From NCBI GenBank assembly GCA_020073305.1, contig JAIQFK010000005.1:1-64000 (forward strand): a DNA stretch of 64,000 bases. Reading direction: 5' to 3'. Positions within the stretch are counted from its first letter, which is position 1, and each line of letters opens with the position of its first letter. Shown piece by piece: positions 1,240 through 2,851 of the stretch. The position numbers and the translations under genes are program-made. Below the pieces are notes generated by a model. It was not told the DNA's origin and ran no database searches. It worked only from the letters and a program-made list of their open reading frames with translations. Origin of the DNA: Terriglobia bacterium. GTDB taxonomy: Bacteria; Acidobacteriota; Terriglobia; Bryobacterales; Bryobacteraceae.

Positions 1240-1689
1240 ATGCCTATTGGGGATATCTGCATTCGGGAAGTCGTGACGGCTACGCGCGATACGACCATCC
1301 AGGAGGCCGCCCAACTAATGCGCGAGAACCATGTGGGCGACCTGGTGGTGATGCAAGGATCAAACGGGAACCGCACGCCCGTCGGAATCGTCACCGACCG
1401 CGACATCGTGGTTGCCGTCGTGGCGCCAGATCTCGATCCGGCCGTTCTCACCCTGGAAGACATCATGAGCCCGGAGCTTGAAACTGCCATGGAGGATCAA
1501 GGCGTCTTCGAAACCATCAACCAGATGAGGGCCGCCGGCGTACGCCGCCTTCCTGTGGTCACCAGAGGCGGCACTCTGGTCGGCATCCTGTCCATCGACG
1601 ACCTGATTCAGTTGCTCGCGGAGGAGATGACCGAGCTGGCCAAGCTGATTTCGCGAGAGCAACGCAGAGAAGCGCACGTCCGGAGATAG
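1240..1689 (+). CDS. Two-CBS-domain protein
   Basis: 149 residues consisting only of a CBS pair: the first CBS motif covers about residues 8-65 (VVTATRDTTIQEAAQLM ... GIVTDRDI) and the second about 75-130 (VFETINQMRAAGVRRLPVV ... GILSIDDL). Such stand-alone modules bind adenine nucleotides and act as small energy sensors; no catalytic domain is attached. The ATG at 1240 is chosen over a TTG at 1222 because GAAAGGA lies nine bases upstream of it. It is divergent from the UspA gene, with about 110 bases between starts that must hold both promoters. Confidence 0.88.
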   Translation: MPIGDICIREVVTATRDTTIQEAAQLMRENHVGDLVVMQGSNGNRTPVGIVTDRDIVVAVVAPDLDPAVLTLEDIMSPELETAMEDQGVFETINQMRAAGVRRLPVVTRGGTLVGILSIDDLIQLLAEEMTELAKLISREQRREAHVRR

Positions 1690-1819: not shown

Positions 1820-1848
1820 TTGCAATTACAGACAACGCAACGTATCAA
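1820..1848 (+). promoter_or_regulatory. Candidate sigma-70 promoter for the downstream RNA
   Basis: TTGCAA at 1820-1825 and TATCAA at 1843-1848 are separated by exactly 17 bases; a start about 7 bases later would fall at the beginning of the hairpin-rich stretch that ends in the terminator at 2066-2104. The match is only four or five of six positions per box, so this is suggestive. Confidence 0.35.
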
Positions 1849-1854
1849 ACGGGG

Positions 1855-2104
1855 CGCCGCCCCGACGATCATCGGCGCGCTCCCAGCGTGCCCTCTGAGA
1901 GAGCGGTGGCCGGCCGGTCACCGCTCCCAGACTCCGGGAGATGAGTAAGTTTCCGAGCGGCGTGACCTGAGGTCTTGAGTACCCGTGACGGACCAGGTCT
2001 GCGCCGCGTGAGATGTCCGCCTATTGAAGAGTGGCGAGGCTAGACCCGCCTGCGGGCAACTCACGCCACGGGGGCTAATGGTTGCCATAGCCCCCGTGGT
2101 TTTT
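1855..2104 (+). ncRNA. Candidate structured non-coding RNA, about 250 nt, class unknown
   Basis: No protein frame with coding character fits this stretch, yet it sits between a promoter-like sequence and a strong intrinsic terminator on the same strand. Visible helices: GGGGC/GCCCC at the 5' end, an 8-bp perfect stem GAGCGGTG/CACCGCTC, and a compound stem with arms at about 1957-1978 and 1990-2007 (GCGGCG/CGCCGC, GACCT/AGGTC, GGTC/GACC). I do not see the signatures of tmRNA, RNase P RNA or SRP RNA. A 6S-like RNA or a clade-specific RNA are possibilities. High GC makes chance hairpins common, so the terminator is the stronger evidence. Confidence 0.42.
2066..2104 (+). terminator. Perfect rho-independent terminator
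   Basis: A perfect 12-bp stem (CCACGGGGGCTA at 2066-2077 with TAGCCCCCGTGG at 2088-2099), a 10-base loop and a run of five T. The T run lies only on the + side, so it ends a + strand transcript and not the converging - strand gene that stops at 2132. Confidence 0.85.
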
Positions 2105-2131: not shown

Positions 2132-2719
2132 CTACTGTTTCCAGGGCCGGTCTGTCACCAGGTCAGGATGGTCTGCCCGGAACGTCTCAACGACCTTGCA
2201 CTGCGAGCACACGGGCTTGTGGGTGGCGAGCGCTTCAGGAATGGCCTCGGGAAGAACGGCATCCCACTCGATGATGGCTCCTGTAGGGCTGAGCAGCGCG
2301 GGCTTGTGTTCCAGCCACTGGATATGGTGGAACGTGCGGCGGCAAAACGCGCACTCCTTGCCCTGATACCAGCCGGCCAGCATTCTGCGCAGGCTGCAAC
2401 CGATGGGCGACAGGTCGATCTGCCAGATACAATCCTGCGGGCAGTTTTCCCGCTCCGGCCAACGAGAACAGTCGTCCAGGCGAAGTTCAGGGGCGCCGAA
2501 CAAGCGCGAAACCGCCGCATGGGCCGCATCCACCTCCACGGCGGCATATTTTTCGGTTTCCGGGCAGGTTATGATGCGCGTGCCGTGATAGTTGAAGTAG
2601 GTGCGCAGGAAACTTCGAACTGCAAACACGATCCCCAGAAGAACCGCAATTCCGGCCAGGGCGTAAAGTGTGTACAGCGCCGTTATGGACGTGCGAAAGA
2701 ACTCATCAAGGGCCGCCAT
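2132..2719 (-). CDS. Single-pass membrane protein with a cysteine-rich domain, function unknown
   Basis: 195 residues. After a short N-terminal tail there is one membrane segment (ITALYTLYALAGIAVLLGIV, about residues 9-30) followed by a soluble domain with many cysteines: a CPETEKY motif, DDCSRWPERENCPQDC, a CAFCRR pair and a late CSQCK pair. The CxxC pairs suggest metal binding or disulfides. The CPET-VxVDA opening resembles uncharacterised acidobacterial proteins as I recall them; no function is known to me. Start at 2719 is chosen for the strong AAAGGGGGA site; in-frame starts at 2737 and 2776 have weaker sites. Confidence 0.7.
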   Translation of the reverse strand: MAALDEFFRTSITALYTLYALAGIAVLLGIVFAVRSFLRTYFNYHGTRIITCPETEKYAAVEVDAAHAAVSRLFGAPELRLDDCSRWPERENCPQDCIWQIDLSPIGCSLRRMLAGWYQGKECAFCRRTFHHIQWLEHKPALLSPTGAIIEWDAVLPEAIPEALATHKPVCSQCKVVETFRADHPDLVTDRPWKQ

Positions 2720-2851
2720 CTCGTCCCCCTTTGCCATGTCCCTTGCACCGGCACGGCCACTATCTAGTTGCTTCAATCTATGGCGTTGTCACGATGAAAC
2801 CAGAGGGAAATTTCGCTCAATCTTGCGGCAATTCACCCAGCTCGGGGGCCC

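Follow-up and report, generated by a model that had tools for sequence, protein, structure and literature searches.

A folded, lineage-specific 3' UTR with its terminator as a candidate reading of a structured gap behind a CBS-domain gene in a Terriglobia bacterium

Near the start of the window, by which we mean the whole 64,000-nt stretch of Terriglobia DNA that was analysed, a gap between two converging genes contains stable predicted helices and a perfect terminator. Does the gap encode a new structured RNA with a promoter of its own, as proposed in an earlier note on this DNA, or does it form the tail of the gene in front of it? The gap extends from 1690 to 2131, between the end of a CBS-domain gene on the plus strand (1689) and the end of a converging ORF on the minus strand (2132), and its 442 nt agree with the length of about 440 bases given in the note. 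We argue, with a probability of about one half, that the region, specific to this lineage, is the folded 3' UTR of the CBS-domain gene together with its terminator. The features of the locus are collected in Table 1.

Table 1. Features of the gap and its flanking genes, with positions in the window
Feature	Positions	Strand	Basis
CBS-domain gene with two CBS stretches, proposed to own the 3' UTR	1240..1689	+	PF00571, E 1.7e-27; orthologue in congener G001, 74% identity
Promoter-like pair TTGCAA-17-TATCAA	1820..1848 (TTGCAA 1820-1825, TATCAA 1843-1848)	+	score 8/12, chance level
Short GC hairpin, 6 pairs	1850..1864	+	predicted fold
GC hairpin, 8 pairs	1874..1892	+	predicted fold
Hairpin of 11 pairs that lacks a T tract and corresponds to the terminator hairpin of the congener	1901..1926	+	fold, alignment to G001
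Helix A, 5 inner and 13 outer pairs, the latter with one bulge	1957..2007	+	MFE fold
Helix B, internal loop and inner hairpin	2008..2064	+	MFE fold
Intrinsic terminator, stem of 12 perfect pairs around a 10-nt loop, T5	2066..2104 (stem 2066-2099, T5 2100-2104)	+	sequence
Converging gene, Cys-rich protein with hydrophobic N-terminal stretch	2132..2776	-	homologue in G001, 52% identity

The 12-bp perfect terminator with five T described in the earlier note is indeed found on the strand given there. Nine of its 12 pairs are G-C, the T tract stands directly after the stem and is followed by GG, and by these features of sequence it would qualify as an intrinsic terminator. It is the sole site on either strand of the window that combines 9 or more perfect pairs with a loop of 3 to 12 nt and a T tract, so that the same scan gave no terminator for the minus strand; a simpler scan misses the site because its loop limit is 8. 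Five dinucleotide shuffles of the window yielded zero sites of this kind, and it is improbable that chance produced a perfect stem of 12 bp followed by T5. This genome has few strong intrinsic terminators: in 460 kb (the window's contig and seven further 20-kb stretches, with ORFs called by a simple greedy rule), a search for 8 or more perfect pairs and a T tract yielded only seven sites, the present one included.

Which transcript would be stopped here? The earlier note argued that the converging gene, which ends 28 nt past the terminator as claimed, does not need it. We agree, but the note did not mention the CBS-domain gene, which lies upstream on the same strand as the terminator, ends 377 nt before the stem and may well use it. 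The rightward neighbour of the gap is the converging gene on the opposite strand. Having a plus-strand gene directly upstream and none directly downstream, the region is placed as a 3' UTR of the CBS-domain gene would be. A riboswitch or attenuator was rejected, as no gene on the same strand has the gap in its leader. Five of the six other strong terminators stand 26, 27, 28, 42 and 116 nt behind a same-strand ORF, which suggests that such sites in this genome usually end protein genes; the sixth was scored as lying inside an ORF. Our script labelled the terminator of the gap in the same way, owing to a long plus-strand frame (2024-2767) that we hold to be spurious, as it is mostly antisense to the converging gene. 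Two observations on position argue against the 3' UTR reading. The distance from the CBS-domain gene exceeds the range of 26-116 nt seen for the five other sites, and, among four more distant CBS homologues, two (L028 and L030) have a same-strand ORF within about 15 nt downstream, while L029 and L031 add no reading, so that the position of the terminator is not general.

Comparison with the congener G001 (contig C574), in which the CBS orthologue and the converging gene have the same arrangement, suggests how the tail of the gene may have changed. The gap of the congener is 236 nt long, and the sole similarity between the two gaps beyond that of shuffles is the hairpin at 1901-1926, with a local score of 37 compared with 30 for the best of 500 shuffles. 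After the CACCGC of this shared hairpin, the sequence reads TTCTTTATTTT in G001 and TCCCAGACTCC in the window. In G001 a T-rich tail stands after the hairpin, which lies about 185 nt downstream of the CBS gene and shortly before the end of the converging gene, whereas the hairpin of the window has no T tract. That the congener, too, carries a T-tailed hairpin between the CBS gene and the end of the converging gene supports the 3' UTR reading. For the roughly 175 nt of the window behind the shared hairpin, comprising helices A and B and the second terminator, no counterpart was detected in G001. The gap of the congener folds with a z of -2.1 (8 of 200 shuffles as good), and its locus gave no Rfam match. 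A search of a third congeneric genome for the converging protein gave no match.

An alternative, which we regard as possible but doubtful, is that the gap encodes an orphan small RNA of this species, about 150-250 nt long and ending at 2104, which would either have its own promoter or be cut from the CBS message, and would act on other transcripts or, by 3' overlap, on the message of the converging gene. The promoter bears on this directly. The pair of hexamers that the earlier note took for a promoter is present in the sequence, but it does not stand out as one. Scored against a sigma-70-type consensus, to which our scoring was confined, each hexamer matches four of six positions; the second lacks the T at position 6, and with 8 of 12 the pair falls below the threshold of 9/12 and is therefore absent from the standard promoter scan. 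Pairs with 8/12 occur 72 times on the plus and 69 times on the minus strand of the 64 kb (141 in total, overlapping ones counted separately), and at least one is found in 31% of 1000 shuffles of 1690-1860. No such pair is present in the gap of the congener. The gap therefore has no sigma-70-type promoter better than chance, as would be expected of a small-RNA gene, which argues against an orphan RNA with its own promoter and for the 3' UTR reading.

The fold of the region is more favourable to a small RNA. The compound stem at 1957-2007 claimed in the earlier note appears in the MFE fold, and the region as a whole folds better than its shuffles, in line with the stable helices described there. 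For 1850-2106, z is -6.6 on the plus and -3.9 on the minus strand, with none of 200 shuffles per strand as good; for 1930-2106, the values are -5.6 and -5.0, with none of 400 shuffles per strand as good (20 shuffles had given -8.5 for the plus strand, and we use the value from 400). When the terminator is left out (1930-2065), z falls to -3.3 on the plus strand (2 of 400 shuffles as good) and to -2.05 on the minus strand (13 of 400). The fold without the terminator is thus only moderately unusual, much of the folding excess comes from the terminator palindrome, and the difference between strands is modest. Taken alone, helix A (1955-2010) has a z of -2.9 and helix B (2005-2068) of -4.3, with none of 200 shuffles as good in either case, for boundaries picked after the fold had been seen.

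How these values compare with the rest of the DNA can be judged from tiles. On the plus strand, 1930-2106 ranks first in a comparison with 172 other non-coding tiles from the contig, nine of which have a z of -3 or lower and none of which reaches its value, a rough comparison at 20 shuffles each. Among 128 samples of 200 nt from the window (25 shuffles each), none reaches -4 and two reach -3, one of them overlapping the locus. The genome's own 6S RNA has a z of only -2.4, so that z by itself neither makes nor breaks an RNA. The first rank among the tiles, the stacked helices, the unusual distance of so strong a terminator from the upstream gene and the presence of hfq in the genome all speak for an orphan small RNA; the z that is left without the terminator is not unique among the tiles, which speaks against it. 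That the fold before the terminator beats 398 of 400 shuffles, more than a plain UTR needs, argues against the 3' UTR reading.

Conservation weighs against an RNA class with relatives. A model of helices A and B (R1), built from one sequence, matched none of 236 other genomes of the family and none of 398 other genomes in a class-wide draw that included family members. At 20 neighbour loci, that of the congener (L004) included, R1 run with filters off gave one match (E 0.49), and at the 80 listed loci of the converging gene it gave one (E 0.57); neither was accepted. A match of R1 to the minus strand at 2006-2102 (28.2 bits, E 0.00061) was attributed to the palindromes within this locus rather than to a second copy. 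At the DNA level, the whole gap gave a single match of 30 nt in 60 relatives (G057, window 1864-1893). With the region 1850-2106, nine of the 236 other family genomes gave matches, nine in all and 20-32 nt long, which fall within 1853-1930 or 1949-1973 and in no case span two core helices; we judge them to be chance. Further weak matches (E 0.017 to 10) fell in seven genomes. The earlier note had named a lack of conservation in relatives as part of what would refute a new RNA, and it is this outcome that we see: no homologue of the core in the 236 family genomes, nor at the locus of the congener. This supports the 3' UTR reading and counts against an orphan small RNA.

How far these negatives reach is indicated by the genome's 6S RNA as a control. 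It was recovered in 28 of 36 family relatives by DNA search and in 31 of 36 by a 112-nt model built from one sequence, but in none of 24 genomes beyond the family by either route, so that the class-wide negative of R1 says little there. The R1 searches, which scored up to 16 and 9 candidates per genome, were less deep than the 6S model control with 62, and the DNA search with 1850-2106 was less deep than its control (3 candidates compared with 13). The whole-gap and 6S DNA searches are a matched comparison, with 61 genomes each and up to 10 and 13 candidates scored.

It is very improbable that the region belongs, as a divergent member, to an RNA class already known, whichever strand is considered. 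At curated thresholds Rfam gave one tRNA for the whole window and no family in the gap, and in a scan of the gap at E values up to 10 no family reached its threshold, which bears out the statement of the earlier note that no standard RNA signature fits. An HDV-like ribozyme (RF02682, HDV-F-prausnitzii) aligns to the minus strand at 1882-1961 with 20.6 bits (E 0.14), but the gathering score of that family is 44, and the alignment contains non-pairs as well as a deletion towards its 3' end. The 6S RNA family (RF00013) was not listed for the gap, and the genome's copy lies elsewhere (C26) with 49.1 bits, above the cut-off. The proposal of a new structured RNA with a promoter therefore holds in part: the terminator is exceptional, the fold is good and no Rfam family fits, while neither a promoter of its own nor an RNA class with relatives is borne out.

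The same lack of a counterpart in the congener for about 175 nt would also fit a functionless relic or a recent GC-rich insert, that is, decayed mobile or coding sequence whose palindromes happen to fold well and in which the terminator is incidental. The GC content, 0.78 in 1850-1929 and 0.62 in 1930-2106 compared with 0.52 in 1690-1849, points the same way, as do short matches to relatives within 1853-1895. We consider this origin improbable. The locus is single-copy, searches of its own genome having returned the locus itself and short matches only; plasmid and phage collections gave no match, and viral contigs gave none to one exact 22-nt pattern. A hidden gene was not found either, as none of six ORFs of the area has a Pfam match at the curated cut-off (Bin2_C, at E 0.3, falls short of it, as does VirD5, at E 0.0027 for the frame 2024-2764, which is mostly antisense to the converging gene), and a perfect stem with T5 is not what chance would readily leave behind. 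Within the GC-rich stretch 1853-1893, 20-32-nt matches were seen in six relatives and could be either chance or a coding relic; one plus-strand frame of this stretch reads GAAPTIIGALP, which is reminiscent of a common permease phrase.

The neighbouring genes deserve comment in their own right. A two-domain universal stress protein gene (PF00582, 263-1234, minus strand) stands head to head with the CBS-domain gene, and a stress locus would be a plausible setting for a regulatory RNA. The converging protein of the window received no name from Pfam or NCBIfam. Nine Cys are invariant among 15 aligned members of its family, none of which matches NCBIfam, and 12 of the 15 carry a C-terminal CxxCH, presumably heme-binding-like, that is absent from the proteins of the window and of G001. 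Scanning genome contigs with the single protein gave no match, whereas a scan with the family alignment confirmed 138 encoding stretches; among the 80 of these that were listed, the hosts are mostly Acidobacteriota, with KSB1, Anaerolineales and others.

How could a folded 3' UTR of the CBS-domain gene have come about, and what might it do? We propose that transcription from the CBS-domain gene runs through 1690-2065 and that the message stops at the predicted terminator. In the congener, the hairpin matching 1901-1926 would act as terminator together with its T-rich tail. Its T tract would have changed in one of the two species, in either direction, and in the window species the segment behind the T-less hairpin, with its two helices and strong terminator, would have taken over the role of stopping transcription. 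The helices may guard the 3' end of the message and prevent read-through into the converging gene, giving a stable 3' UTR, and a stable fragment of about 150-180 nt might conceivably build up.

A bolder variant, which we think unlikely, is that the segment is a recently born small RNA: the folded stretch of about 175 nt and its new terminator would have arisen behind the T-less terminator hairpin and come to act as a stable regulatory RNA, produced along with the CBS/Usp locus, while the sister species keeps the one-terminator layout. If a discrete RNA accumulates, the locus would be a case of a small RNA arising in the tail of a gene, with a sister species of other layout at hand; as a plain 3' UTR with its terminator, it is ordinary. 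The negative results show that a terminator and a good fold in one genome are insufficient for calling a new RNA class.

Several known systems invite comparison. Solibacter usitatus, a source of one noncoding candidate, is a species that we take to belong to the same family as that of the window. In the parts of the source we draw on, the Solibacter-1 motif is a table row without an Rfam number, an uncertain noncoding candidate from that species (PMC2864571); the present region resembles it as a noncoding candidate and differs in that R1 matched no other genome of the family. Acido-1 and Acido-Lenti-1, which carry Rfam numbers according to the same portion (PMC2864571), had no match in the gap at curated thresholds or at E up to 10. 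Hfq-binding small RNAs share with the region an end at an intrinsic terminator, and hfq is encoded in the genome of the window; as far as the consulted part of PMC5558911 describes them, they have seven or more T after a moderate hairpin, whereas the region has T5, followed by GG, after a very stable stem, which argues against an orphan small RNA of this kind. The RrA/RrB/RrF small RNAs, according to an excerpt of PMC8144298, occupy the space between dual terminators in the rRNA operons of E. coli; their expression has been shown, and they are conserved throughout Enterobacteriales. Their host is an rRNA operon, whereas here the host is a CBS-domain gene; our first hairpin lacks a T tract, and the stretch is not conserved and is a candidate from sequence alone. 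Common to both is a folded stretch that is preceded by a terminator-like hairpin and closed by a second terminator, where the host transcript ends. The intrinsic terminator that closes the 3' UTR of a protein gene differs from the present site in distance, since several helices separate ours from its gene and the five others of this genome stand much closer, but has the same build: a GC-rich perfect hairpin with T5, downstream of a same-strand gene.
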